DNA of 64,000 nucleotides from NCBI GenBank assembly GCA_903824675.1, contig CAIJXV010000102.1, forward strand, positions 1 to 64,000, in the 5' to 3' direction. Under the pieces are notes generated by a model. The model was not told where the DNA came from and searched no databases. It saw nothing but the letters and a program-made list of their open reading frames with translations. This DNA comes from an uncultured bacterium (GTDB lineage: Bacteria; Verrucomicrobiota; Kiritimatiellia; CAIKKV01; CAIJXV01). Positions 11,711 through 43,779 of the stretch are shown in pieces (position 1 is the first letter of the stretch; the number at the start of each line of letters is the position of its first letter). The position numbers and the translations under genes were made by a program.

Positions 11711-14209
11711 ATGAAAAACGGATGGATCCTGTTGATCGCGGTCGTTGGGTTTTTATGGTCCCCCGCGGAAGGTATTGATGCCGCTCCTGCTTTTGTGGCG
11801 AATGGGCAGTTCAAGGTCGTATTGAGAGGGGCGCTTGAAGGACCTGACCGCTCCGCATTTGTGCGCCGGGACCTGATTCACATTGTGTTCCCGGTCGTGG
11901 TCCGAACGCAAGGGATGGCCCGAGTTGACGGGCAGGTTCGTCTGGTCGCGTCCGATGGGACCGTGCTCTGGGAGACCAAGGGCACGCTCTCCCAGCCGAA
12001 AACAGGTGTCTCTCCGATTGAAATACTTTTGGATAGTTCCCCTTGGCGGGTCGGGGAATATGCGATTGAAGTCCGCGCTTGGGTTGGTTCTGAAAACTTT
12101 CAAACCAATTTGCCGTTATGGATTTGTCCTGAACCCGACCGGCAGGGTCTTGTTTTCGGGATGCTCGATGAGCAAATTCGCCGGGGTCGCGTTTTGTCGG
12201 ACCATTTGGACGAATTGAAAACCATGGGTTTTTCAGCGGTTATGCATTATCAGCCCACGCCGGAATTGATGGAAGACTGCCTGCGTCAAGGTTTGAACGG
12301 ATTGGCCATTCTGTCCGTCGGGGGATTCAAAGGGGATCATGAATCGACTCGGCGTCTGAATGCCCGGGGAATTCCGTTTGAGTATGATCCCCGAAAACCC
12401 GACAGCGGACGGTGGGGGATCGCGCATCCCGGCTGGCAGGCGGCGGCTGCCGTCCAGATGGAGGCCGGGGTGAGAAAATGGGCGGCCTACCCCGGGTTCT
12501 GGCCGATGATCAATACCAGTGATGATTTTTATCGGTGGACCGGTTTGGATTATAATTCAAATAATGTCACGGCATTTCGCTCGCGGGAGGGGATCGACCC
12601 GCCCCGTCCGCCGGAGGCGCTCGAGTCGGATTACCCGATGCAGGTTGCCCATCCGCCGGGAATCCTTTCCAATAATGAGCCCTGGGTCCTGTGGCAGGCA
12701 TTCAATTCCCGCGACGTTTTGGGGCATTATAATGGGTTGTTGGCCGAAGCGGTGCGTCGGGCCACGAAGGGCCAAGGGCGGATTGGGCCGGTGTGTGGCG
12801 GCGGGCCCTGGACCTTGGGTACCGTCCCCCTGGTGGATCTGCCCTCCGGGCAGTGGCCGCCCTATAATTTTGGACGTGATCAATTCAGTTTGAATTCGTA
12901 TTACAATTACAACTCTTATTGGTTTCCGGCCATCGCCCAGGTTTGGTGGGCCGAGCTGGCCCGAATGGGAAATCGGTCGGCGACCGTTTGGGTGATGCCG
13001 GATACAATGGATCTGCGCCGGACCTACCATCTCCAGAACGCATGGATGTTCTTGGCGGGCGGGGTCAATGGATTGATTTATTTTATTTACGAATGGACCT
13101 CGCCGGGGTCGCGCGCGGCATTAAGTCAGATCGGGCCGGACCTTGCCAAAGTCAAGGATCTCCTGGGGGAACTCAAGCCTGCGCCCCGCCGGTTGGGATT
13201 GGTGATGCCGTTTGAAACCGCTTGTTTTCGCGCCTCCCATCCCGCGGATGCGGCTTACGCTTTCGCCAATCTGGCCATGGCACATGCCGAAGTCGAGCCG
13301 GTCTGGCCGGAGGAATTACCCGAAAGGGGAGAGGGCTATCGGGCGTTGCTGTTATATGATGTTGATTGGCTGACCGAGGAGAACGTCCATCGTCTGCGTG
13401 AATTTCAAAAGCACGGGGGACGGGTTATTGCCGATGCCGCCTCCGCGGTCGATTGGCCGGGACTGGAACGGTTGGATTTTTCCCTGGCGAGTCCCCTCCG
13501 GGATGGAGGTTACGGGGATACGCAGTTGATCGCGCGGATTAAGGGGGTGACCGATCGAATGGTTCAACCCTGGGCTCAATCTGCAGATCCTCATCTCTTA
13601 TTGCGACATTTCCTGTTGGATGGAGTGGACTATCTCTGGATCGTCCAACTCATGACCCGGGAGGAGGATCGAGCCCATATTCACCTGACCCCGGGTCAGG
13701 AATTCAAGACGCCGGCTTTGGCAGCCTATGCGGAGTATGATCGCACGCGGTATGCCGCCCAATTTTCCATCCCGTCGGGATCCTTCCGAATGGTGGCGGA
13801 TGTTTTGGGGCAGCACCCGCCGGTGGAGGTGAGGGAACAAGCGGGACGAAGCGAAATCTCCCTGTCGATTCCGGGTTGGCAGGGACGCCTGCTGGCCTTT
13901 TATCCCCAGCATCCGGATGCCATCCAAATCGATTTTCCGAAATCAGTCAGGCGGGGAAAAACGATGGAGTGTAGGGTTGAAATCCAGGCAGACGGCCGCC
14001 CCGTTTCAATGACCCTTCCGCTTGAAATTGACGTGATCCAACCGGATGGAACCCGCCACGCTGAATTCAGTCGGACGGTTCTGGCTCGACGGGGTCAGGT
14101 TCGCTTCGGTCTGGATTTTGCCCGGAATGAACCGGTCGGCGACTGGATTTTACACGTCAGGGAGGCGACCACCCGGGTGGTCGGGGAGAAACGGTTTTCG
14201 GTGCGTTGA
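11711..14209 (+). CDS. Exported glycoside-hydrolase-like protein (TIM-barrel type)
   Basis: An 832-residue secreted protein with a signal peptide (MKNGWILLIAVVGFLW..., cleavage near GIDA). An N-terminal beta-sandwich of about 120 residues (RVDGQVRLVASDGTVLWETK) precedes a large region with barrel-like features: ELKTMGFSAVMHYQP, WPMINTSDDFYRW, ATVWVMPDTMDL and LIYFIYEWTSPGS. A Rossmann-like segment (RALLLYDVDWLTEENVHRL, GGRVIADAASAVDW) recalls the glutamine-amidotransferase-like trimerisation domain of GH42 enzymes. It ends with beta-sandwich sequence. No catalytic pair can be named with certainty. It stands alone, divergent from the YihY gene. A carbohydrate-active role is inferred. Confidence 0.55.
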   Translation: MKNGWILLIAVVGFLWSPAEGIDAAPAFVANGQFKVVLRGALEGPDRSAFVRRDLIHIVFPVVVRTQGMARVDGQVRLVASDGTVLWETKGTLSQPKTGVSPIEILLDSSPWRVGEYAIEVRAWVGSENFQTNLPLWICPEPDRQGLVFGMLDEQIRRGRVLSDHLDELKTMGFSAVMHYQPTPELMEDCLRQGLNGLAILSVGGFKGDHESTRRLNARGIPFEYDPRKPDSGRWGIAHPGWQAAAAVQMEAGVRKWAAYPGFWPMINTSDDFYRWTGLDYNSNNVTAFRSREGIDPPRPPEALESDYPMQVAHPPGILSNNEPWVLWQAFNSRDVLGHYNGLLAEAVRRATKGQGRIGPVCGGGPWTLGTVPLVDLPSGQWPPYNFGRDQFSLNSYYNYNSYWFPAIAQVWWAELARMGNRSATVWVMPDTMDLRRTYHLQNAWMFLAGGVNGLIYFIYEWTSPGSRAALSQIGPDLAKVKDLLGELKPAPRRLGLVMPFETACFRASHPADAAYAFANLAMAHAEVEPVWPEELPERGEGYRALLLYDVDWLTEENVHRLREFQKHGGRVIADAASAVDWPGLERLDFSLASPLRDGGYGDTQLIARIKGVTDRMVQPWAQSADPHLLLRHFLLDGVDYLWIVQLMTREEDRAHIHLTPGQEFKTPALAAYAEYDRTRYAAQFSIPSGSFRMVADVLGQHPPVEVREQAGRSEISLSIPGWQGRLLAFYPQHPDAIQIDFPKSVRRGKTMECRVEIQADGRPVSMTLPLEIDVIQPDGTRHAEFSRTVLARRGQVRFGLDFARNEPVGDWILHVREATTRVVGEKRFSVR

Positions 14210-30674: not shown

Positions 30675-31300
30675 TGGCGATTACACTACAGCAGTCGGGA
30701 AAGGGATTCAATCGTATTTGATATCAGAACCCGGCAGGATCTTTTCAGAAATTGATGAAGATGATCTAATTGATAAATGAGTGAATCTGCAAATAAGCTG
30801 GCCACTGAGGTTAGGGGTGGGAACAATCCTGCGGCATTGGATGTGCGAGTGATTGGGATGCCTCAGGCCTGAACGGCGATGGTGGCCCGGTGCAATCAGC
30901 CTGATAATTTCAGGCGATTAGTGACGTATATAGTAGGCAAATATCGGGAATTTTACCGGGACCATTTGCCAGAAGTCGTGGTTGAATTACAGATGGTAAT
31001 AAAAGTAGAGGATACTGTTGGGACGATTGTCAGAGGGACCAATTACATGGCCGGTGCACAACCATTGCCAGAAATCCAGGCGACCGACTTCTCGTCGATC
31101 CACGATAACCCTTATATTATTAGGATATTAGAACGTTTTTTGGGTTTATTCGATAATCAGCATCTGTTCGGTCTGTCTGTAGGATATTCACCTAGACGAT
31201 GCCTCGGTTCTGTAGTAATTAACTGAATTTTCATGCTGACTTTTCACCTAAACGCGAGTAGTTTAAAGGCAATTGCGTTAAATCACTTGTAGTGGTGACC
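30675..31300. other. Long intergenic region without a convincing gene
   Basis: About 625 bases, more AT-rich than the neighbours. The longest frame (30879-31226, plus) encodes 115 residues with no recognisable motif and no ribosome-binding site, so I do not call it. The sequence probably holds the upstream control region of the DUF11 surface-protein gene. Confidence 0.4.
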
Positions 31301-34300
31301 ATGAAAATATCAATGCTAAAAAGTAGTATGCGGGCGCATTTATTGCTTATTTCGCTGGGTCTTGTATTTCTAAACTCGGGCTCATTGCTCCAAGCCTCCA
31401 ATCCGGCAGGAGATTTACGCATTGAAGTCCTGAAGGCGTATAATTTAGTCGTTGATTCGAATATTGAGACCCCTGCGTCATATGGACCCCGGGCGGCCTA
31501 TTTGGGAGCAAAACTTTACAATGATGGAACGAATCCGCTGACGGATGTGTTCGCCTATATCGGGGATTTCAAAGGCGGTACGAACGATACTCCCGGCATC
31601 TATCCGTCGCGCGCGCATCCTCCGTTAGTCGGACCATTGCCGGGAAGTCAATTCGCCTTAACGCACGAAGGCGGCAGTTTAGGAACGACCGATGCGACGC
31701 GAAATCTGGGTACCATTCAGCCGGGCGAATATGTCGTGGTTTACTGGTTGGTGAGTTATCCCGTCAAGGATGTCGCTGGACATACGGTTGCAGGCGGAAT
31801 TAAACCCGATGATGATCTCTGGCTGAATTATGACGTTTGGGGAATCGCGAAGGAGGGGACTACTTCAGTGACCGCGGATGTGCCCAATAAAGTGACGATG
31901 CGCAATGAAATATCCGCCATGGCCAACAAGATTCTGCCCAATTCGGCGAATAAGGTTCCGCAGGAATACCAGGATTTATTGCAAAAATATACTCCGTCCT
32001 GGACGAATGCCGCCGATGATGGAACCCCAGGGACACGGATCGTGACCGAAGGCGTTTGGTATGACATGGGGAACATTGGCGATGGTTTCGATAATAACGG
32101 GGACTTGGTGCCGGATCGGAATTTGTGGCTTCAGCCCGTGGGGGATCCCGCGATTTTCGACACGTCCAATTTTCGATTGGTTAAAACGCATGTGCTCTTG
32201 GTCGTCAAGCTCAACAACGGAACCGAGCAGGTCTACGATGTAACCGATCAGCTTTATTTCCAAAATATCGCCGCCAATAATGTGGGTGCGGTCGGATATG
32301 TGGCCTATGAATTCATGACGTTGCAGGGAGGACGTCAGAGCACCCTGAGCCCCTACCAGGAAGCCGCGTCCGGACGAGATAATGAGAAGTTCAATGGGGA
32401 TTACGGTGCCTCTTTGGGATATGGTTCATCCCTGTCCAGTGGTACGTCTCGGGTGGATATGGCTAAAGCGGCGAGCGTGACGGATGCCTTCCCCGGGTCC
32501 AATGTCACCTATTCAATTACCTTTACCAACAGGGGAACCATTAGCGTTGGAAATCCGACAGAGGCGATGCCCCTGGTGATTGTCGATGCCATTCCTTCAG
32601 GAACTTATTATGTCGCGGCGAGTGCCACCAACAATAATCTTTTGCCCGCTGGAGTGAGTAATTATGTCGTTTATTATTCAACCAACAACCAGGCGGGATG
32701 GTTGCCAACCGAGCCGGTTGCCCACTCCGGTTGATGCCACGAATGACGGAGTATTGAATTGGGCAAATATTGGGCCCTTGGCCCCCGGCGCAAGCACCTC
32801 CGTGGTGGTCAATTTCATTGCCGTTCGAAGTTCGGCGGGGACGAATCACACTAATCTCGTGGTCTCAGCCCCGACGACGCCGGTCAACTATCCGTCGGTC
32901 GCAATTCAGACCAGTAGCGCGCCATATCGGATCAGTAGGGTCGGGTTTACGCTGACCAAAACGATGATCGATCCGACCAACCGTCCGGTGGTGGTGAATG
33001 AGCCGGTGACTTTTGCCATCCGGATTGCCAACACAGGCGATATTCCATTGGTAACCGTGCCGGTGCGTGATGTGTATGAGCCGGGCGTCATGGTATATTC
33101 GAATGCAACTCCGGCTTCGGATGATAATCTGAATGACGGGGAAATAACCTGGACAAATGTTGGGCCGCTGAATCCTGGAGTGATGACGACCGTGTTGGTT
33201 CGCTTCACCATGATCGCAAACACCTTGGGGACTTTGCATACCAATAGGGTTATTGCGGCGCCAACAACGGCACCCGACGAGCCGACCGTCCCTCCGCAAA
33301 CCAATCAGGTCACCTTCTCATCTCAATTGGGTTGGATCGGGGATACCGTCTGGGTCGATGATAATTTGAATGGGCTGCCGGATGAGGATCTGGCGACACG
33401 GGGTTTGAATTCCGTGCGGGTTCGTTTGTATCGGATCGGTGTTGGCGGGACGAATTATGTGGGCGAGACTTTCACAGCGACGGTCGCCGGACGGCGCGGA
33501 ACCTATGTCTTCAGTAATTTGACCTATGGCGTATACCAAGTGGTCGTGGATCGTACCACGGTTCCTGCGGGGTTGGATATTTCCACAACCCCTCCCACGG
33601 TGACGGTTTCGCTGACGCCCAATGGATTTAATGTCAGTGCTGATTTCGGATTCATGAAGTCGCGTCCGACTGCGGTTGATTTGATGTGGTTCCGGGGAGC
33701 CCCCGACGGCGATAGGGTTAAATTGTCGTGGGAAACAGCTATTGAACTGAACAACCTGGGCTATAACGTGTATCGGGCATCGAGCGAATCAGGCGGTCGC
33801 CAAAGGCTGAATTCGGCCTTGATTGCCGGTGCAGGAACCGGAATCGGGCAAGTCTATGAGTGGTGGGATGAGGAGCCAGGTAGCGCATCCACGATGTATT
33901 ATTGGTTGGAAGATGTTGAAACGACGGGCCAGGCGGAATGGCATGGGCCGGTGGTTGTGCGACGGATAGAAACCCGCCCGGAAATTTCGTTGCCGATTTC
34001 AACGCTGACCGGGGTGCTGTTCAAGGTGACCGGCGCAACGTTGGGTGCTTTGGGGCTGCCGATCGCCTCGACGGATGCAGACCACTTGCAGATTTGGATA
34101 AATGAGGAACCGGTGTCCTGTTTTGTCACGGCAGAAGCCCGGCCGATGGCGGATGATGATTGGGTGCTCTTCAGCACGGAAGGGCTGACCGTTGCTAATG
34201 TGACGATCGATTTGAGTGGTGAGCCGGGATTACGGATGGTGAAAATATTCTCTCGACCGTCCCGCGTCTCTGGGGACGTCGGGAACCAGAGGGTGGGGGC

Positions 34301-34550
34301 TACTCAGGTTGGTCGTGTCGAGGTGACGCCTGACAAGGTTCGCTACCTGCTCAGCGGCTTTATGGGCGACTCGGCTTGGCTGTTGGATGTGACCGACGCG
34401 CGGAATCCGCGACTGATGATCGGTGCCCAATGGATTCAAGTTTCCGGTGAGGCCGGATTGTACTTCAGTCATCCCGAAGGAGGTCCGGCTCATTGCCTCG
34501 GGGTAGGGTCAACCGCGGTTATCGAGTGGGTACCGCAGACGGACGAATAA
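31301..34550 (+). pseudogene. Large DUF11/SdrD-B surface protein, interrupted by a one-base frameshift
   Basis: Two frames (to TGA near 32734 and from about 32715 to 34550) together make one protein of about 1,080 residues. Deleting one C from the CCC at 32721-32723 restores GWLPTEPVA-TPVDATNDGV. In order it has a signal peptide (LLLISLGLVFLNSGSLLQA), an N-terminal region of about 370 residues, two DUF11-type beta domains ending in WANIGPLAPGAS and WTNVGPLNPGV, an SdrD B-like domain (IGDTVWVDDNLNGLPDED), then WETAIELNNLGYNVYRA...YYWLEDV, a tail often found in secreted PVC proteins. It would be exported or surface attached. The frameshift may be real decay, phase variation or a sequencing error. 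Confidence 0.75.
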
Positions 34551-34715
34551 GGGAAAGTTGGCATGAAGTCTGGCCGCCGGTTGGACTTCGGCTGGGCCAA
34601 AACTTCATCAGGCTGTCAGGATTTGAGCAGATCAGTTCACCCTGAGATCCTCGGCATGACGGAGTTCGCCTTCGACCTTATGGCCGATACAAAACGGAAT
34701 ACAGGATGCCGACCG

Positions 34716-35420
34716 ATGAACTCTGAAAAGTGGGAGGCGCGCTCCGCCGCGCCGACACACTCTCCCCCCTATCGCACAACGATTTGCCATTATTGCCTAG
34801 TCGCCGTCCTGATGCTGGGTCTTATCACCTGCTTGGATTTAATTGCCTCTGCAGGCGGCCTCAATGGGTTTCCGCAAAATGACATCATCCGGTTCGATCC
34901 TCCCACCAATGCGACCGGTGGATACCCTTTCGAGATTCGGGTTCCGCCTTTTCGCGAGGAACTCACTTCATCAGGCTGGGTGTTGTCGTTTCCCGGTCAT
35001 CCGATTTCTGAAACTCCGGGTCATCCCCAGTTGGGTGGGTTGGCCTTTCTTCTGCCCGGCCAAATGGGACATGTGTCCCGGGTTGAATGGGTGCATTCCG
35101 AATTTGAGGATCGCACCAATTTCCCCGTGGCGCCGGTTCCCGCAATGAAACGGATTCACCTGGACGATACTCGATATCGGGACGAATATCTGCGGATCAC
35201 GAACGAGGCGGTGTATGCCAGTGACCACTTTATTCCGGATGCCGGTTTCACGGTCAACGAAGGGCAGATGGCGACCCAGCGGTGGGTTCGGTTGATCTGT
35301 CATCCCAATCAATATTATCCCACCCGCCAGATCCTGCGCTGTCATCGTCGGATTGAAGGTCTGTTGTTTTTTGATCCGGTTCCAGCATCCATCACAAGAA
35401 AAGATGACGATCGACGCTGA
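34716..35420 (+). CDS. Exported protein resembling a C25-peptidase propeptide
   Basis: About 234 residues from ATG 34716. A hydrophobic signal-like segment (CLVAVLMLGLITCLDLIASA) is preceded by a long polar stretch. The mature part has features of gingipain-type propeptides: GHPQLGGLAFLLPG (compare 'G-x-P-x-L-P'), SRVEWVHSEF, and a final RLICHPNQYYPTRQILRCHR, like 'V-x-P-x-Q-Y-x-P-x-x-x-x-L-R-x-Y'. The start is uncertain: an ATG at 34563 is possible, and a GC palindrome (34736-34753) inside the N-terminal part suggests that the true start is later. It ends 19 bases before the C25 peptidase gene. Confidence 0.55.
   Translation: MNSEKWEARSAAPTHSPPYRTTICHYCLVAVLMLGLITCLDLIASAGGLNGFPQNDIIRFDPPTNATGGYPFEIRVPPFREELTSSGWVLSFPGHPISETPGHPQLGGLAFLLPGQMGHVSRVEWVHSEFEDRTNFPVAPVPAMKRIHLDDTRYRDEYLRITNEAVYASDHFIPDAGFTVNEGQMATQRWVRLICHPNQYYPTRQILRCHRRIEGLLFFDPVPASITRKDDDRR
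34736..34753. repeat. GC-rich palindrome GGCGCG-N6-CGCGCC
   Basis: GGCGCG (34736-34741), CTCCGC, CGCGCC (34748-34753). The same style of element appears in intergenic positions at 30168 and 50687. Its presence inside the 5' part of the propeptide-like frame argues that this part may be untranslated. Confidence 0.4.
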
Positions 35421-35439: not shown

Positions 35440-37689
35440 ATGTTAACGCGTTTAATCAATCCAGCCCGTCACCTGCTGGTGTTTTGCCTGCTCGCCGGGT
35501 TCGGGTTAAGTCAGGATGCGTTCTCCCAATATGTGCCTTCAGGGGGAGAATTCTCATCTCAAGTGGTTCCATCGATGAATGGGGCGGCGACCGATTTTTC
35601 TCCCCATCGATCTGGACTTTCAGCTTTGGCGGATTTGCGGATTCCCATCGGGTCTGCAGCGGTTTATCGGATTACTCAGCCTCAACTCGTCACGTCTGGA
35701 ATCGATTCAAATCAATTGATGGGGGACCATATCCGCCTTTTTTGCAGGACCCAGGAGGTTGCGGTTCAGGTTTCAAATTCCGGCCTTTGGACGACTAACG
35801 ATTCGCTAATGTTCTACGGTGCACCGCATCCCGGCTATTACACCACGACCAATGTCTATTGGCTTGGGGTCTCGGGAGGGTCGCGTTTGGCGATGCCCAT
35901 TCTGGATGGAGCGACCAATTCAGGGGGCATCCGTGTGACTTCGTATTGGGCGCGGGTTACCTATGCGCCGGATCTATTATGGCGCGATTTTTATCGACCT
36001 TGGGATGATACGATCGATCATTGGTTCGCGGCACTGGTCACACATACCGCTGATACGCCGACGGTCGTGACGCTGGATGACCGAATTGCGGCTGGCAATG
36101 CGACATTAAATCTTCTGATGTATGGATTGACTTCCGGTTCACACACGACCCGCGTCTACATTAACGGTAACTCGGTGTTTTCCTTTGCCTACACGGGTGC
36201 TGAACGATTTTCAACATCCAGCCAGTTTTCTGTGTCGTTTCTCCTAAATGGGGCCAATACGTTCACATTCCGGCAAACGAATGCCCCCTTGGATAGCGCC
36301 TATGTGACGGAGTATTCGGTCGATTACTTGCGCTCTTTGAAAGCGCGTAATGACACCCTGAACTTCAATGGTCTGGCCGGAACCAATCTCTATCAGATTT
36401 CAGGGTTTTCAACGAATATGGGGTTCAGGGTGTTGGATGTCTCTGATCCCGTAATGCCTCAGCTTTTTACCAATTGGAGTGTCACGGGTGGGCCGGCAAG
36501 CTTTGTTCTTAATTTCCGTTCTGTTTCCACTATTCCTCGCAGGTATTGTGTCTCGACCGACGCGCGAATCGGAGCCGTGTCCGGACTCCGCCGTTATTTC
36601 TTCCGGGATCTGGCGACCACTAATAATCAGGCGGATTATCTTATGGTGACCCCTTATGATTTGCGGCGTCCGGCCTATGATCTGTTAAAGCATCGACAGA
36701 CCAACGGCTTGGCGGTTAAGGCGGTTCCGTTGGATGACCTGTACAATGAATTTTCCTACGGGATTGTCGATGCTGCGGCCATCAAACAGTTTATCGGATA
36801 TGCTTATTATCAGTGGAAAAAACCGGCTCCGCGGTTTGTCTGTCTGGTGGGTGAGGGGACTCCCGACCCTCGTAATGGATTAGGATTGAATTCTGTTCTG
36901 ACGTTACCGGTCCATTATGGCCCATCCTCATTCAATTGGTGTGCACAGGATAACTGGTATACCTGTGTGGATAAGCCTGATGATTGGTTGCCGGACCTAT
37001 CGATTGGACGCATTCCAGTTTCCACCACGACTGAATTGGCGCGTGTCGTCGTCAAAATTAAGTCCTTTGAAACTAATACGCCGCCACCGGAGGTCCTTTT
37101 GGTTGCGGATAAAACAGACACTAATCCCCCTCCCCTTAATTTCAAAACCGCGTCAGAAAGTTTGATTTGGCCTCCGCTTGACCGATCCGGATATTATATT
37201 TTTGGTCCGCAGACAGTTTATTATGACGATGATCCGAATCCTCAAACCCTGCGATTTAACATCAAGAGTGCCATAAATACCGGAGTTCATTTAGTGACGT
37301 ATTTTGGCCATGGCGCCGCTGATCTTTGGAGCGCACAAAATTTCTGGAACACGAATGATATTCCCGGGTTAACTAATTCCCGGTATCCAATTGTCGCGAT
37401 TTTTAGTTGCAAAAACGGGGCATATGACGATCTGTCAATAAAATGTTTAGCCGAAGTCTTTGTTAAAGATACGCATGGCGCGGTGGCTTGCGTGGCCCCC
37501 ACTGTTTTGTCGGTGCAAGAGTATGCGGAAAAGATTGCCCAAGGATTCATGGGTGAATTTACCAACCAAACCACGCGGTTGGGTGATTCGATGAATGCCG
37601 GGCTTTTGAATCTCTGGCATTGGAATGACACCGCCTACGAATTGATGTGTTATGAGATTTTCGGGGATCCTGCATTGGAGAAATACTGA
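35440..37689 (+). CDS. C25 (gingipain-like) cysteine peptidase, secreted
   Basis: A 749-residue exported peptidase with a signal peptide (HLLVFCLLAGFGLSQDAFS). The first half is beta-rich. The catalytic half begins around DYLMVTPYDLRRPAYDLLKH and includes VCLVGEGTPDPR and LPDLSIGRIPVSTTTEL. The catalytic histidine is H624 in VTYFGHGAAD and the nucleophile C657 in IFSCKNGAYD, the family's H-G and S-C arrangement. No C-terminal sorting domain is visible; the protein ends with FGDPALEKY, the usual close of the catalytic domain. Gingipain-like enzymes process surface proteins. The candidate propeptide is encoded separately just upstream, and the nucleotidyltransferase gene follows after one base. 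Confidence 0.88.
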   Translation: MLTRLINPARHLLVFCLLAGFGLSQDAFSQYVPSGGEFSSQVVPSMNGAATDFSPHRSGLSALADLRIPIGSAAVYRITQPQLVTSGIDSNQLMGDHIRLFCRTQEVAVQVSNSGLWTTNDSLMFYGAPHPGYYTTTNVYWLGVSGGSRLAMPILDGATNSGGIRVTSYWARVTYAPDLLWRDFYRPWDDTIDHWFAALVTHTADTPTVVTLDDRIAAGNATLNLLMYGLTSGSHTTRVYINGNSVFSFAYTGAERFSTSSQFSVSFLLNGANTFTFRQTNAPLDSAYVTEYSVDYLRSLKARNDTLNFNGLAGTNLYQISGFSTNMGFRVLDVSDPVMPQLFTNWSVTGGPASFVLNFRSVSTIPRRYCVSTDARIGAVSGLRRYFFRDLATTNNQADYLMVTPYDLRRPAYDLLKHRQTNGLAVKAVPLDDLYNEFSYGIVDAAAIKQFIGYAYYQWKKPAPRFVCLVGEGTPDPRNGLGLNSVLTLPVHYGPSSFNWCAQDNWYTCVDKPDDWLPDLSIGRIPVSTTTELARVVVKIKSFETNTPPPEVLLVADKTDTNPPPLNFKTASESLIWPPLDRSGYYIFGPQTVYYDDDPNPQTLRFNIKSAINTGVHLVTYFGHGAADLWSAQNFWNTNDIPGLTNSRYPIVAIFSCKNGAYDDLSIKCLAEVFVKDTHGAVACVAPTVLSVQEYAEKIAQGFMGEFTNQTTRLGDSMNAGLLNLWHWNDTAYELMCYEIFGDPALEKY

Positions 37690-37690
37690 G

Positions 37691-38764
37691 ATGCACCCGG
37701 AATCGATCCAGCAATTTGCCCGTTTGCTTGTGTCCCGAATGGAGACCGGAGCGGAAGTTGCCGGTCCATCGGATGCCGATCTGTGCTCCCTGGTGGAGGC
37801 TAACCGACTTGGGCCTCTGTTTTATTTGTGGGGCATCCGTCCTGAACTCTGGCGTGATCTTTATGTCCGTAATGTGAGTCGGGCCGAACCAGCAATAGCC
37901 TTAGGCCTTGATGTGGCGGGTCGTTTAGAGCAGGCGGAGATTCCCTGTCTTCCCCTGCGCGGCCCTTTCTGGGGGATGCAGTATTGGGGGGATCCGGCGG
38001 CTCGGACATTTTCGGATCTGGATCTTCTCGTGCCTTCGGATCACGCCGAACGGGCGCTGACACTTTTGGAGAAATCGGGGTTCAATCTTCGTCCCCGGGG
38101 CATGCCGACGCGTTTCTTCCGGTCCGTACATTTACATTATCCCCTGGTTCATTCCGCAACGGGTATCTTTTGTGATCTGCACTGGGCGGTTGATCATCCG
38201 TTTAGTGGGGGACGGATTCCTTATGAATCGATCTTTGCGGAGTCAACGTTCAAGACATTTGGAAAACATCAGTGGCGGGTTGCCGCATTCCCACATGAGT
38301 GGTTGTTGGCTGCTCTTCATTTTGCCAAAGAACTCCCACCTTCAGGAAATGAGTCCGATTCGACGCTGTGGGCAAGGGCCTTGATTTCAGGTCAATTCAA
38401 ACAGGTGCTGGATCTGTCGGTTTGCGGGTTGCCACTTCAATGCGGTTCTGCCTATGAGGTTGCGAACCGTTTGGCGCGCGAGTGGCATGTCGAGGGCGCC
38501 CTGAACCGGGCACGAACGGTACTGCAGGGGTTTCACGATCTGCAAATACCGCTGGCTTTGGGTGACTTGGACTTGGCGGCGCCCCAGGACTCGTTCATGG
38601 GCCCCCTGGGTTTTCGCGCGAAGCGGTTAGGTGACGTTATGACGTATCTTCGAAAGGGGAGCGGTTGGCGTGCGGGTGCGCATTTGATCTGCGCCGGCTG
38701 TATTGCCGCCGCCTGCGTGGCCGTCTGGAAAATTCGCAACCTGCGACTGAGCGGTGCCGCATGA
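37691..38764 (+). CDS. Nucleotidyltransferase family protein (PF14907-like)
   Basis: A 357-residue protein with the core PCLPLRGPFWGMQYWGDPAARTFSDLDLLVP, in which D-L-D provides the paired metal-binding aspartates of the DNA polymerase-beta-like fold. DLHWAV and AAFPHEWLLAALHFAKE follow, typical of the NTP_transf_5 group found beside HPr-kinase-like proteins in exosortase and lasso-peptide loci. The C-terminal helix (GAHLICAGCIAAACVAVW) looks membrane-associated. It starts one base after the C25 peptidase stop and overlaps the next gene by four bases, so it belongs to this operon. A nucleotidyl transfer to a peptide or carrier is inferred. Confidence 0.75.
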   Translation: MHPESIQQFARLLVSRMETGAEVAGPSDADLCSLVEANRLGPLFYLWGIRPELWRDLYVRNVSRAEPAIALGLDVAGRLEQAEIPCLPLRGPFWGMQYWGDPAARTFSDLDLLVPSDHAERALTLLEKSGFNLRPRGMPTRFFRSVHLHYPLVHSATGIFCDLHWAVDHPFSGGRIPYESIFAESTFKTFGKHQWRVAAFPHEWLLAALHFAKELPPSGNESDSTLWARALISGQFKQVLDLSVCGLPLQCGSAYEVANRLAREWHVEGALNRARTVLQGFHDLQIPLALGDLDLAAPQDSFMGPLGFRAKRLGDVMTYLRKGSGWRAGAHLICAGCIAAACVAVWKIRNLRLSGAA

Positions 38765-39573
38765 AAATGATACTTTTCATTCTGGGGGCGGTCATGGCGG
38801 TCGCGGTTCAAGCAGCCGATCTTTTTCCGGATGACCATGGTGATGCGATCAGCGAGGCGACGTCGATGATGGTCCCGACCAATGGTGTGACGGTTTCCGG
38901 GCGAATTGAAATCGATACCGATCAGGATTGGTTCGAATTCATTGCTCTTCCGGATACGGTTTACCGGCTCCAGGCCCAGGTGTCTTCGCTCTGGGATATG
39001 GAACTTGAATTCAGGGGGCCACACACGACTCGCCTGGTGCGAGCGACTTCGTCGGCGCTCAGTTCCGCCCCGGCCAAAGTCACGCTGACCTGGACCAATA
39101 TCGGTGCGGCAGGGCCTTATTACGTCGGCATTCGAGGCTATTTATCTTTCACCACCGGCACCTATTCGCTAGCCGTTGCGCCGCTCAATTTGATCGATGA
39201 AGATGGGGATAGCCTGCCGGATTCCTGGGAATGGGCTCAGTTCGGTTGGCTCGGGAGTACGCCGCAGGGCGATGATGATGGCGATGGGTTTAGCAATCTT
39301 TCCGAGTTTTATAGCCGGACGTCTCCAACCAATCCCGCTTCCGCCCTTCTGTTACACCCACACAAAACAGCGCCGGGAGTAGTGACTGTGGATTGGCCGG
39401 TTGTTCCAGACTCGGTTTATCGGGTTTGGTGGTCCACCAACCTTGTGACCGGAATCTGGATGCCACTCGACACTCTTTACCAGCCGGTGAATGGCGGGAC
39501 CAATCTGCAATGGAATGATGCTTTCAGCGTCTCGCAACAGTTTTATAAGGTGGAGCTTTTTCTCGGTCCCTGA
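38761..39573 (+). CDS. Exported protein with PPC-like domain and calcium-binding D-x-D-x-D motifs
   Basis: A 270-residue secreted protein: signal peptide (MILFILGAVMAVAVQA), then a beta-sandwich resembling bacterial pre-peptidase C-terminal domains (VSGRIEIDTDQDWFEFIALPDTVYRL... GPYYVGIRGY). Two thrombospondin type 3-like loops follow, DEDGDSLPDSWE and DDDGDGFSNLSE, and finally a beta domain common in PVC proteins (YRVWWSTNLVTG). It has no catalytic signature. Its ATG overlaps the nucleotidyltransferase stop. A calcium-dependent surface adhesion or substrate role is plausible; it could be a client of the C25 peptidase. Confidence 0.7.
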   Translation: MKMILFILGAVMAVAVQAADLFPDDHGDAISEATSMMVPTNGVTVSGRIEIDTDQDWFEFIALPDTVYRLQAQVSSLWDMELEFRGPHTTRLVRATSSALSSAPAKVTLTWTNIGAAGPYYVGIRGYLSFTTGTYSLAVAPLNLIDEDGDSLPDSWEWAQFGWLGSTPQGDDDGDGFSNLSEFYSRTSPTNPASALLLHPHKTAPGVVTVDWPVVPDSVYRVWWSTNLVTGIWMPLDTLYQPVNGGTNLQWNDAFSVSQQFYKVELFLGP

Positions 39574-39593
39574 CGCGGTGTTTGGAGAATGTC

Positions 39594-41603
39594 ATGATGA
39601 TTTCATTCCTGATCCAGGCCTCTGTGCTTTATCTGCCTGGCAGGCTGGCGGTCGCCGGCTTTGTTCCGTTGGATGGCGAGCAAAAGCCGGGTTGGAAACA
39701 GATGGCCTTTCGGACCGTGCTAAGCCTGGTTTTGGGATTAGTGCTCAATGCTTGGGGCGCCTTCATTTTGGGAAGCCTGGGAATATGGGGCCAGCTTAAC
39801 GGGTTGCTGTTTCCTTGGATTCCCGCATTGCTGCTATGGGCGATTGCCCGGCGGCCGCTTCAGGGCTCTTTCCGCGAGTTGATTGCGGGGTGGGGGTTTG
39901 CCTGTGCCCTCTTTATGGTGATTCAATCCGTTCCCGCGCGCAGCGAATGGATGGTCGGGGGATGGGATCCGGGTATTTATACCAATGAAGCCTTGAAATT
40001 AGTTCATACCGGATCCCTGCATAGCGAGGTACATCCTTTCGCCCAGGCGTTGGGAGAGGATGCGTTGGCTCCGGAAATTCGCGCTTTTGATGTTTATGTC
40101 GAACTTTTTCCCGGGGTTCCGATCGAGCCCCATACGGGCCGCGTGACCCCCGCATTCCCCCGGATGGCGGTCGCCTTTTTTGCCAGTGTGGGGCGATGGT
40201 TGGGGCCTGAAGGGGTATTGAAGGCCCCCTTAATCTTTGCGGTGTTTCTTCTTTTTTTATTCATGGCTTGGGCGGTATGGGCCGATGAGTCGCCTTACCA
40301 CGCTTGGGCCGTGTTGATTTTGACCGTTGGACAACCTCTTTTTATTCATTATGCCATCACGCCTTCCTCCGAGATGATTGAACTGCTGTTGTTGACGACT
40401 TGTTTGGGCGGATTCTGGCTCGGGTGTTCGTCCCGCCAGGGCTGGTTTCTGGTGGCGATATTGGCGATGACTCTGGCGGCGAACCGAACCTCTTTTTTGT
40501 TATTTGGTTCCCTGGGATTGTGGGTCATGGCTCTTTGGGATTGGAAACAGGTTGATCGGCGTCAAATGCTGATCCGACATGGAGGGATTGCGGTTGCCTT
40601 GTGGGTGGGTCATTTCATTCTGGGTAACGTCACCCCGGTTGCGATTTATAAATTGTCGCATATTCTGCCTCGTATTTATAAGGCCAGCCTGATGCTAATG
40701 GGGGGGGCCTTGATAGTGGATGTGTTGTCCTTCTGGCCGGCGATTCAAGAATGGGGGGGGCGAGTCGCCAAACGCGGCGGACCTGGGGTTCTGCCCGCCT
40801 TTTGGCTGATTCTTTTGTCGATCGCCATAGGAGGGCGGATCTGGGAGGTGGAATTGGCGCGGAATTTTCGGGTCTGGGTGGTCTATGCGGGGGTATTGGG
40901 GGTGGCGGCTGCAGCGGCCGGAAGTGTGGGGCCAGCCTTACGCCGTTCCTCTGCGGCGGGTGTTCTGCTTTTATTTCTCGGGTTGGCCTTGACGATGGTG
41001 TTATGGCAAAAGCATGCGGCTGAACTCTACCCCTGGGCCTTGAAGCGTTTCCTGCCGTGGGGCATTCCACTGGTCGCCTTGGGCGCCTCATTCTTTTGTA
41101 TTGATTGGGCCCGTCGGGTGGGGCAGGACTGGCTGGTTTTAGGGTTGGCCTTGATTCTTGTGGCCCCGGTTGGACGAGTGGTTTTACAGGCTTGGAGAGC
41201 AGGCGAATATGTGGGTGTGAACCAATCTCTTTCGGAAGTGACGGGACGGGTTGGTGCCAATGCCTGGGTTGTCTGCGATCATTTCCAATGGGCAACGCCG
41301 CTTTACCTGGCATTTGGGGTGTCTGCCCTGGACGGACATCGTTTATTGGAAAATGCTGAAATGCCCGAGGCGAAGAAATTCTGGAGTCGATTGTCTGCCC
41401 TCCAGCGAAAAGGGCAGGTGATCTATTTCCTCTCCTCCAATGATACCGCTGTCGATCCCTGGGTTTTGACCCCGGGTCGGCATCGGTTGATCTGGCTTTC
41501 CGATCCTCTGCGATTCCGCGAGATCCACCAACACGCAACCAATCGTGATTTTCCAGTCCGAACACTCACCCACGAGTTTAAATTATATGAATGGTGTCCC
41601 TGA
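39594..41603 (+). CDS. Multispanning membrane protein, GT-C glycosyltransferase-like
   Basis: A 669-residue integral membrane protein with about 12-14 hydrophobic segments. The first extracytoplasmic loop reads GGWDPGIYTNEALKLVHTGSL, with an acidic residue placed where PMT/ArnT-type lipid-linked sugar transferases carry their catalytic aspartate. The C-terminal 120 residues form a soluble domain (ANAWVVCDHFQWATPLYLAFGV). ATG 39594 lies six bases behind GGAG. The role would be sugar transfer from a polyprenyl carrier outside the membrane. The 3' end overlaps the S26 peptidase-like gene by 17 bases. Confidence 0.6.
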   Translation: MMISFLIQASVLYLPGRLAVAGFVPLDGEQKPGWKQMAFRTVLSLVLGLVLNAWGAFILGSLGIWGQLNGLLFPWIPALLLWAIARRPLQGSFRELIAGWGFACALFMVIQSVPARSEWMVGGWDPGIYTNEALKLVHTGSLHSEVHPFAQALGEDALAPEIRAFDVYVELFPGVPIEPHTGRVTPAFPRMAVAFFASVGRWLGPEGVLKAPLIFAVFLLFLFMAWAVWADESPYHAWAVLILTVGQPLFIHYAITPSSEMIELLLLTTCLGGFWLGCSSRQGWFLVAILAMTLAANRTSFLLFGSLGLWVMALWDWKQVDRRQMLIRHGGIAVALWVGHFILGNVTPVAIYKLSHILPRIYKASLMLMGGALIVDVLSFWPAIQEWGGRVAKRGGPGVLPAFWLILLSIAIGGRIWEVELARNFRVWVVYAGVLGVAAAAAGSVGPALRRSSAAGVLLLFLGLALTMVLWQKHAAELYPWALKRFLPWGIPLVALGASFFCIDWARRVGQDWLVLGLALILVAPVGRVVLQAWRAGEYVGVNQSLSEVTGRVGANAWVVCDHFQWATPLYLAFGVSALDGHRLLENAEMPEAKKFWSRLSALQRKGQVIYFLSSNDTAVDPWVLTPGRHRLIWLSDPLRFREIHQHATNRDFPVRTLTHEFKLYEWCP

Positions 41604-42057
41604 CCCCCAAAAAATTCCGCCCGGTATTGTGCTGGAAACCCTTCGGAGTGTGTTGCGGGAAAAGGGTGAAGTTGCCCTTCCCGCTGTGGGTTTCAGCATG
41701 GGCCCGAGATTTCAGGCCGCTGAATCGCTGGTGATTCGCACTTCTTCTCCGGGTCAGCGGTTCTCTCCAGGTGCGATCGTTGTTTTTGAACGGAATGATC
41801 GATGGGTGGCGCATCGGCTTTGGCTCAAATGGGGCGAAATCCATTTGACGGGTGGTGATGCGATTGGGTCGCTCGATTGGCCGGCGCCCCAGCGGAACGC
41901 ACTGGATGGCGAGGTGGTGGCGCTTTGGTTTCATGGTCAACGGATTGGATTAGAGTCTGCGACGGTCTGGTGGAGGCAGCCCCGATGGATGGCCGGCGGG
42001 GTTCTAAGACTTCTGCGAATGCTTTTTTTAAAGTGGGTCAGGCGCAATTTACCTTGA
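41587..42057 (+). CDS. S24/S26 signal-peptidase-like protein
   Basis: A 156-residue protein with the signal peptidase I-type box LPAVGFSMGPRF (G-x-S-M-x-P), containing the candidate nucleophile serine. It also has GAIVVFERNDRWVAHRLWLKWGEIHLTGGDA, the matching 'V-x-H-R-x-x' and 'GD' segments of S24/S26 proteins. The general-base lysine of S26 is not obvious at its usual place; in this group a histidine (AHR) occupies the box. A short amphipathic C-terminus (LRLLRMLFLKWVRR) may touch the membrane. Such small S26-like proteins occur with HPr-kinase-like and nucleotidyltransferase genes in peptide-modification loci. Confidence 0.7.
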   Translation: MNGVPDPQKIPPGIVLETLRSVLREKGEVALPAVGFSMGPRFQAAESLVIRTSSPGQRFSPGAIVVFERNDRWVAHRLWLKWGEIHLTGGDAIGSLDWPAPQRNALDGEVVALWFHGQRIGLESATVWWRQPRWMAGGVLRLLRMLFLKWVRRNLP

Positions 42058-42100: not shown

Positions 42101-42457
42101 ATGCCCAATACTCGACATAGTGATCGCCGGGAGACGTTTGCTTATTGGCCCGCGCACAATGAGTTTACAGGCAAACCATTGGGCATGGTGACGAATATCA
42201 GTGAAGAAGGGATTCAATTGCACAGCGAAGATCCTTTCGATAAGGATCAAATAATACCCTTACGACTCGCCCCGCCGGCTAATCTGACGGGCGCCAGGGA
42301 AATCCTCTTAACGGTGCAAAATGTCTGGTGTTGGCCTGCGGTTAACCCTGCGCTTTATCATGCAGGTTTCAAGATCATTCGTGCGACTCCTTTGGCCCGG
42401 AAGGCTCTGCAGAAATTAAAGGATGCCTTCAGCTATCCCGTTCCCCCCAATTCCTAG
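42101..42457 (+). CDS. PilZ-domain protein
   Basis: A 118-residue single-domain protein with the PilZ signature: an N-terminal R-R-E (SDRRETFAYW) and VTNISEEGIQLHSE, the 'N-x-S-x-x-G' part that binds cyclic di-GMP. The usual R-x3-R spacing is reduced to D-R-R-E, so nucleotide binding is likely but not certain. It has a good ribosome-binding site (AGAGGAG). It ends the plus-strand operon and overlaps the convergent HPr-kinase-like gene by four bases. Confidence 0.75.
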   Translation: MPNTRHSDRRETFAYWPAHNEFTGKPLGMVTNISEEGIQLHSEDPFDKDQIIPLRLAPPANLTGAREILLTVQNVWCWPAVNPALYHAGFKIIRATPLARKALQKLKDAFSYPVPPNS

Positions 42458-43335
42458 GATTCTTTCAGCGATGCCAGAGCGAAGGGGACCGCCTTTGCGT
42501 CGGGTTTGAAGGCCATCAGGCGGCTGGGAGTCGCCAGACAAATCTTTTCGGCCAGTTTTAGCAGGCGGGTGACACTGGCAGGGGAATAAAAGGGTGCTAC
42601 GGCAGTGGCCATCAGGCAGGCTACGGCGGTCGCGCCCTCCACGGTGGTGCACTGATTGGAGGGCGCTTGGGAAAGATGGAAAATCCCCGCCAACGGCGCG
42701 GATTGGTCGATGACCCGCTCTTCTTCCCCATGCCAGGGTGAAGCGAAAAGATAAGGTTTTCCGCCGACGAAGCGCAAAATAACGCGATCATCGTTCAATA
42801 AAATTCCACCCTGTTTTCGCCATAGACGCGCCAGTGTGGTTTTCCCGATTCCCGAACGCCCTCCGAAAATGAACCCCTGTCCCTCCCAGACGATGCCGGC
42901 GGCATGAAGAATCAAGGCATCGTGGTGGACCAGTCGATTCGCGATGATGGCCTGATCGGTGGGGTAATGCAATGCCAGCCGGGAAGGCAATCCCTGGCGT
43001 CCTGAGCGAAGTTTTATTTTGATCCGGCTGAAATCCCGTGAACAATCCGCCACCGGCAGCCACTGATTGTTCGATACGGTGTGGATTTCGATTGACCACC
43101 GGTTGAGCCCGTTATCCCCCATGCGCCAAATATCACAGGACCACAGATACTGGGACCCGACGATAGGCGGAAGCGGGGTGTCGGCGTCGACCACCCGGAT
43201 TCGGGTGGATGGATTCAACCCATTGGCCGTCCGCCGGAAAGGTTGATACTCATCGGGAATGAGGAGCGGAGTTGTTGAATGCCGGGCTCCGACTTCAAAG
43301 CGTATGCCGGCTAATTCAAACGTCAGGCGTTGCAC
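42454..43335 (-). CDS. HPr-kinase-like P-loop protein
   Basis: A 293-residue protein related to HPr kinase/phosphorylase, of the kind found in exosortase, SynChlorMet and lasso-peptide loci. The second half carries LILHAAGI, Walker A GGRSGIGKTT (158-167), LLNDDRVILR and SPWHGEEE, which correspond to the HprK catalytic core. The N-terminal 130 residues are unique to this group. There is no HPr gene here. The GTG start lies three bases after the stop of the 59-residue peptide gene, which strongly suggests co-translation and a functional link. In the lasso peptide paeninodin a homologous kinase phosphorylates the C-terminal serine of the precursor. Confidence 0.85.
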   Translation of the reverse strand: MQRLTFELAGIRFEVGARHSTTPLLIPDEYQPFRRTANGLNPSTRIRVVDADTPLPPIVGSQYLWSCDIWRMGDNGLNRWSIEIHTVSNNQWLPVADCSRDFSRIKIKLRSGRQGLPSRLALHYPTDQAIIANRLVHHDALILHAAGIVWEGQGFIFGGRSGIGKTTLARLWRKQGGILLNDDRVILRFVGGKPYLFASPWHGEEERVIDQSAPLAGIFHLSQAPSNQCTTVEGATAVACLMATAVAPFYSPASVTRLLKLAEKICLATPSRLMAFKPDAKAVPFALASLKES

Positions 43336-43338
43336 CGG

Positions 43339-43518
43339 TTAGGACGGGTTCAGGGTACGGAGTAAGGTGACCCCATCCTGGGCACAGGCCGTATTCCCCA
43401 GTGCATCCTTACAAACAGCCATTGCCACAACCCGTTGATCCTGCAGTTTGATTCGGGTAAGGGTGGGGGGGGTGTAAGCCGGTCGTTCTGACGGTCGCAT
43501 TGCGATCTTTTTTTTCAT
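43339..43518 (-). CDS. Short peptide, candidate RiPP-type precursor
   Basis: A 59-residue peptide from ATG 43516-43518, behind GAGGATGATTC. It starts MKKKIAMRPSERP. A Y-x-x-P-x-L motif (Y15, P18, L20), as in leader regions recognised by PqqD-like domains, is followed by TRIKLQDQRVVAMAV. The C-terminal half has two cysteines nine residues apart (C36, C45; CKDALGNTAC) and the peptide ends in serine (RTLNPS). The pattern 'Y-x-x-P-x-L-x-R-I-x-L ... C' is typical of short peptides beside HPr-kinase-like genes. Two homopolymer runs (eight A, eight C) sit in frame, so the frame depends on them being correct. No PqqD protein or radical SAM/cyclase enzyme is nearby. Confidence 0.7.
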   Translation of the reverse strand: MKKKIAMRPSERPAYTPPTLTRIKLQDQRVVAMAVCKDALGNTACAQDGVTLLRTLNPS

Positions 43519-43693
43519 GAATCATCCTCGCCGTCGCAGTTATATATACGGGCAAATTTGTTATTTAACTTTAAAAGAAACCACCGGATGGGGCAAGGGT
43601 TAATATTCAGTTTTTAAAAAAAGGTGTGGTGTTTTAACCCAACTATGGTATATAGAAAACCCTCGCAACCACGTCCTTTGGATGCGGATGTTT

Positions 43694-43779
43694 GCCGGAG
43701 TGACGAAATGGCATACGTACCAGACTCAAAATCTGGCGCCCGCAAGGGCATGAGGGTTCAAGTCCCTCCTCCGGCACCA
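43694..43779 (+). tRNA. tRNA-Leu (anticodon CAA)
   Basis: An 86-base tRNA with encoded CCA. The acceptor stem GCCGGAG pairs with CTCCGGC. The anticodon stem-loop is CCAGA-CTCAAAA-TCTGG, giving CAA. The class II variable arm is CGCCCGCAAGGGCAT. The T arm is GAGGG-TTCAAGT-CCCTC, and the discriminator is A. The gene stands alone. Confidence 0.95.

Follow-up and report, generated by a model that had tools for sequence, protein, structure and literature searches.

The stretch of DNA analysed here (the window) comprises 64,000 nucleotides of a draft genome from the class Kiritimatiellia. On its minus strand lies a 59-codon frame (43339..43518, −) encoding the peptide MKKKIAMRPSERPAYTPPTLTRIKLQDQRVVAMAVCKDALGNTACAQDGVTLLRTLNPS, which starts at an ATG at 43518, seven bases behind a ribosome-binding-site-like GAGG (43526..43529, −), and ends with a TAA at 43339, followed by CCG and then by the GTG start, at 43335, of a gene for an HPr-kinase-like (HPrK-like) protein. 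The peptide carries Y15-T-P-P18-T-L20 (43459..43476, −), a candidate RRE-binding leader motif, two cysteines, C36 (43411..43413, −) and C45 (43384..43386, −), and a C-terminal serine, S59 (43342..43344, −). This anatomy had been described in a sequence-only reading, which proposed the frame as the substrate of the kinase and of neighbouring enzymes, and every element of it, including the three-base gap to the kinase, proved exact on re-reading. No Pfam or NCBIfam family matched the frame, and a promoter scan did not find a sigma-70-like site. A tRNA-Leu (CAA) gene (43694-43779) lies about 175 bases upstream on the opposite strand.

Taken in isolation, a 59-codon frame is not significant, and many spurious ones are present among the frames listed for the window. 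The argument for a gene comes from its relatives. Relatives of the kinase were found in 50 of 146 related genomes, and the short same-strand frames adjoining them constitute a single family, as the sequence-only reading would have it, with Y-x-x-P, a cysteine and the terminal serine conserved. Among 34 aligned precursors, Y15, P18 and C36 are invariant, the last mostly with a lysine directly after it, L25 and C45 are near-invariant, and the leader motif takes the family-wide form Y-x-x-P-x-[VIL]-x-x-[IVM]-x-[LF]. The expected conservation of both cysteines held fully for the first only; the second, at least 90% conserved, is missing from one member, and the number of cysteines differs between precursors. 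The same reading had flagged runs of eight A and eight C as possible sequencing errors, but they do not call the frame into question, because the alignment of homologues stays in frame through both of them with no indels (Y-T-P-P-T-L-T-R-I-K-L vs Y-T-K-P-V-V-T-R-V-K-L). Differences between precursors fall chiefly at third codon positions, with dN/dS of about 0.1 to 0.5 for pairs with unsaturated dS (dN 0.18 and dS 1.6 for the pair from loci L036 and L044; dN 0.17 and dS 1.0 for L067 and L069), and these codon comparisons indicate purifying selection among relatives.

The terminal residue is serine in 31 of the 34 aligned precursors, the remainder ending in Thr, Ser-Ala-like or Ser-Leu. Because the full model already contained the C-terminal serine, a leader-only profile without it was run on loci outside the alignment. 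It recovered 31 further precursors, ending in Ser (26), Tyr (3), Val (1) and Gly (1), against a background rate of terminal serine of 12% over all frames; the formal p-value of this enrichment (2e-19) is optimistic, since the sequences are related. The residues ahead of the terminal serine vary widely (NPS, DPS, SPS, GS, DMS, SIS), and three of the five held-out precursors that do not end in serine (those ending in Val and Gly and one of those ending in Tyr) also lack the cysteine. The precursor profile matched 31 of 388 genomes in a sample of the phylum, every one of them in the class of the window, and, within that class, 57 of the 346 genomes searched (about one in six). On these sequence comparisons, the 59-residue frame represents a real, conserved and uncatalogued precursor family. 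One related locus (L051, G038:C12) has a tandem pair of precursors ahead of one kinase, and a further precursor (L138) lies some 10 kb from them.

The kinase gene (42454..43335, −) encodes 293 amino acids and carries H144, G159, G162, G164, K165, D182 and D183, corresponding to the H-G-G-G-K-[ST]-D-D residues reported to be conserved in lasso-peptide kinases (PMC10368454). Its structure model, reliable only from about residue 135, matched 1knx and 2qmh (Foldseek E=1.6e-5) over the C-terminal domain only, which has the HprK/P fold. A PilZ-domain gene (42101-42457) lying between the kinase and S26 genes was considered and rejected as part of the system, as no homologue was found near the other kinases examined.

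Further genes of the region are on the plus strand. A signal-peptidase-like S26 protein (41545..42057, +), the proposed leader peptidase, has a Ser51-His90-Asp105 triad of the SipW/archaeal type; it scores 19.5 bits against TIGR02228, under the cut-off of 51.85, and its structure model (pLDDT 41) was too poor for use. An NTP_transf_5 nucleotidyltransferase (37652..38764, +; PF14907 E=1.6e-18) is a candidate for elaborating a phosphorylated serine. It is followed by a small protein, putatively carrying a signal peptide, that has a weak Amuc_1099-family match (38761..39573, +; homologues in 10 of 37 kinase loci) and by an integral membrane protein with no Pfam match (39582..41603, +; 6 of 37). 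Farther out lie a C25 (gingipain/PorU-like) peptidase (35440..37689, +; PF01364 E=1.3e-68), a Propeptide_C25 protein upstream of it (34563..35420, +; PF08126 E=9.2e-07) and a conserved neighbour, a DUF11-repeat surface protein (31292..34550, +). The latter is read as two overlapping frames (31292-32734 and 32664-34550), whereas locus L043 has a single frame; a frameshift or a split gene is possible.

In relatives, these genes belong to a longer cassette, with the usual order DUF11 protein, C25 peptidase, PqqD-type RRE, radical SAM/SPASM enzyme, precursor, HPrK-like kinase, S26 peptidase and sometimes NTP_transf_5. Over 37 kinase loci, radical SAM genes occurred in 32, the RRE in 29, S26 in 28, C25 in 21 and NTP_transf_5 in 13, so that the proposed linkage of the precursor with kinase, nucleotidyltransferase, S26-like peptidase and PqqD-like leader binder is borne out by the relatives' loci. 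The statement that radical SAM and PqqD are absent holds for the window but not for the genome, where both are adjacent on contig C35; in relatives, both genes lie directly upstream of the precursor. The cassette often adjoins a Wza/Wzc-type polysaccharide export set in relatives. At eight loci (L052, L055, L060-L064 and L069) it lies beside FecR-like/glycosidase-like, beta-barrel, Wza and Wzc genes, a link to exopolysaccharide export.

The window thus holds the second half of the cassette, and the RRE/radical SAM pair of the same genome is on C35 (L072, G000:C35:208-1568), where a PqqD gene and a radical SAM/SPASM gene overlap by four bases; after them comes a PPK2-like gene on the opposite strand. 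Both members of the pair find their best matches among the cassette genes of relatives; the radical SAM protein, 42% identical to a relative's enzyme, carries CNLRCHQC and a Cys-rich C terminus, in line with the CxxxCxxC motif and Cys-rich C-terminal part of the relatives' enzymes. At only 3.9 kb in a draft assembly, C35 could have been misbinned, but this is unlikely because its tetranucleotide make-up resembles that of the window (r=0.93, compared with 0.85 or more for the window's own pieces and 0.45-0.89 for other genomes). L041 and L043, from the same taxonomic order, share the window's downstream set (S26, small protein, NTP_transf_5 and C25) and still have RRE and radical SAM genes upstream of the precursor. 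Genome G028 likewise has an intact radical SAM gene some 33 kb from its usual place. An in-frame TGA suspected in that gene was only apparent, being its natural stop.

Since the C35 pair and the precursor are unlinked in this genome, their joint action is something that we infer. The separation would also suit a linear phosphopeptide as in the LPPs of Bacillota, which would be only phosphorylated, perhaps elaborated, and cleaved, with the C35 pair serving another substrate; kinase, S26 and NTP_transf_5 alone fit the LPP gene set (PMC13381572). We regard this reading as unlikely, considering that members of this precursor family are flanked, in most relatives, by the radical SAM gene on one side and the kinase gene on the other, that a genome search and the profile found no second precursor of the family in this genome, and that the cysteine is invariant in 34 precursors. 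It is also opposed by fusions of radical SAM enzyme and kinase in three genomes (G003, G084 and G110), which are single open frames (L058 9218-11233, L140 3283-5592 and L141 1534-3651) whose lengths, in rising order, are 672, 706 and 770 amino acids and which, because the two activities are joined in one protein, constitute strong evidence that they share one pathway. Beside each fusion gene lie an RRE gene, an S26 gene and another gene for a radical SAM enzyme. At these three loci no member of the 59-residue precursor family was detected.

The system has the general features of a RiPP: a short precursor with a conserved leader and a variable core, linked modifying enzymes and a PqqD-type RRE. 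We consider it probable that the frame encodes a RiPP precursor modified by a radical SAM enzyme and tailored by a kinase. The conservation, anatomy and linkage of the frame, the presence of all the enzymes in the genome, the catalytic motifs found in the kinase, in the peptidase and in the radical SAM enzyme, and the fusions in relatives can be read directly from the sequences; from them we infer the chemistry of each step, the order of steps and the function. The discrete RRE of C35 would bind the Y-x-x-P-x-L leader, a fit to the [Y/W]xxPx[L/V/I/F/A] motif that discrete lasso RREs recognise (PMC13381572), and present the peptide to the radical SAM/SPASM enzyme. This enzyme would modify the Cys-containing core, of which C36 is the proposed start; a Cys-based cross-link is a guess. 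There are strong grounds for supposing that the HPrK-like kinase phosphorylates the peptide, putatively on the hydroxyl of the C-terminal serine, and NTP_transf_5 may then add a further group onto the phosphate; in lasso peptides, kinases phosphorylate the C-terminal serine and a nucleotidyltransferase adds hexoses (PMC8498205). The S26 peptidase would take off the leader, as an SpI-like peptidase does with RRE help in LPPs (PMC13381572), and the product would reach the cell surface, where its partners may be the C25/DUF11 surface proteins or the layer of exopolysaccharide.

Several observations count against this pathway. NTP_transf_5 is near just 13 of the 37 kinases and a dedicated exporter near few of them, with ABC homologues lying no more than 6 kb from the kinase at four of the 37 loci and none in the window, so that an MsbA-like transporter is not a regular companion. 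The terminal residue is not serine in three of 34 aligned and five of 31 held-out precursors, and the choice of the terminal serine as target draws on the analogy with paeninodin, because LPP kinases use an internal serine (S3).

The short gap between peptide and kinase genes, together with the fact that HPrK proper phosphorylates a protein, might fit a peptide that is a small regulator or partner of a kinase acting on a protein elsewhere. The RRE-type leader motif, the invariant cysteine, the variable core and the terminal serine are, however, features of a substrate, and RRE and radical SAM genes accompany the peptide, which makes a regulatory role highly improbable. Somewhat less remote, yet still very unlikely, is that a small redox cofactor, comparable to PQQ or mycofactocin, is made from this peptide instead of a secreted product. 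The logic of RRE, radical SAM enzyme and short peptide is common to both, and one relative's radical SAM enzyme shows similarity to the mycofactocin maturase and PqqE in NCBIfam and to PqqE in the PDB. The precursor core varies in length and sequence, which is not the case for the cores of PqqA and MftA, and the cassette is linked both to surface proteins of the C25/DUF11 kind and to genes for exopolysaccharide export. We also know of no terminal-residue kinase in the PQQ and mycofactocin pathways, which counts further against a cofactor.

Membership of the lasso peptides was considered in view of the Y-x-x-P-x-L leader, the kinase with NTP_transf_5, and the RRE of a relative, which scores with lasso PqqD models, although at 41.1 bits in NCBIfam, under the curated cut-off of 70. 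It was rejected, since no B2 peptidase (PF13471) match in the genome exceeded the cut-off of 26 bits (the best, on a contig other than the window's, reached 21.6); radical SAM and S26 genes are linked instead, and a lasso product is hardly credible. Nor was a lasso cyclase (asparagine synthetase homologue) noted among the proteins of the window. The probable radical-SAM-modified RiPP shares with lasso peptides of the paeninodin/pseudomycoidin type an HPrK homologue with a C-terminal serine as its target (here the proposed one), a nucleotidyltransferase, a discrete RRE and a [Y/W]xxP leader (PMC8498205).

These lasso peptides and the LPPs are the nearest known relatives of the family, which has no NCBIfam or Pfam model. 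LPP loci combine a kinase, an RRE, an SpI-like leader peptidase, an NTP transferase and a transporter in capsule loci and lack a radical SAM enzyme (Popov et al. 2026, PMC13381572). The discrete RRE, the HprK-like kinase, the archaeal/SipW-type SpI peptidase and the NTP transferase are all present in this genome, the RRE unlinked, and the YxxP leader and the position beside capsule or exopolysaccharide genes are further likenesses. In contrast to LPPs, the present family has a radical SAM/SPASM enzyme and an invariant cysteine, a conserved serine that is terminal and not internal, usually no MsbA-like transporter and a distribution outside Bacillota; of the LPP consensus YxxPxVLxHQxIxFETxxS, only YxxP and the next hydrophobic residue are held in common. 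SynChlorMet cassettes also unite HPrK-like, PqqD-like and radical SAM genes, and two radical SAM genes occur at L058, L140 and L141, but the scores are far under the curated cut-offs (ScmC 20.4/125, ScmD 21.2/100, ScmE 77/400 and ScmF 42.6/400). The HPr-rel-A system (TIGR04352/TIGR04353) similarly pairs an HPrK-related kinase with a PqqD-family chaperone, and here too both components fall under the cut-off (kinase 22.5/200 bits, PqqD 23/35).

A literature search, which missed most subscription journals, found no paper on a RiPP combining radical SAM and HPrK enzymes. The family would therefore join two RiPP logics that are separate so far in the searched literature, namely radical SAM modification of the core and HPrK-type phosphorylation of a terminal serine. 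The role of phosphorylated RiPPs is unknown according to the authors of the LPP study (PMC13381572), and the recurring linkage to C25/DUF11 and polysaccharide export genes offers a testable lead on it. In a more speculative and rather unlikely extension, the phosphoserine could be an attachment point at which NTP_transf_5 or an exopolysaccharide enzyme links a sugar or surface polymer through a phosphodiester, so that the radical-SAM-modified peptide would covalently decorate the exopolysaccharide/surface-protein layer on which the C25 (PorU-like) peptidase and the Wza/Wzc export genes act; if so, a RiPP would serve as a building block of the cell envelope. Split clusters such as the present one, with enzymes in trans, escape window-based mining.

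Beyond the class, a search for the kinase in viral contigs found nothing, and a scan of genome contigs with the kinase alignment gave at least three distant loci. In Nitrospirae (L104), kinase, radical SAM, RRE and S26 genes accompany a 53-residue peptide, MEKKKWIKPECIKVRLVPEESVLWGCKG...PSPSS (12003-12200, −), with a W-x-x-P leader, a Cys-Lys pair and a terminal serine. The Clostridiales locus (L106) has RRE, radical SAM and kinase genes without a precursor of the 59-residue family. In Mesobacillus (L105), kinase, RRE, S26, ABC transporter and NTP_transf_5 genes occur together with a leader that keeps most of the LPP consensus, and a radical SAM match was not obtained at this locus. The region L105:6568-11189 of Mesobacillus subterraneus, with the leader HQPIKFETAHS, appears to be an LPP-type cluster.
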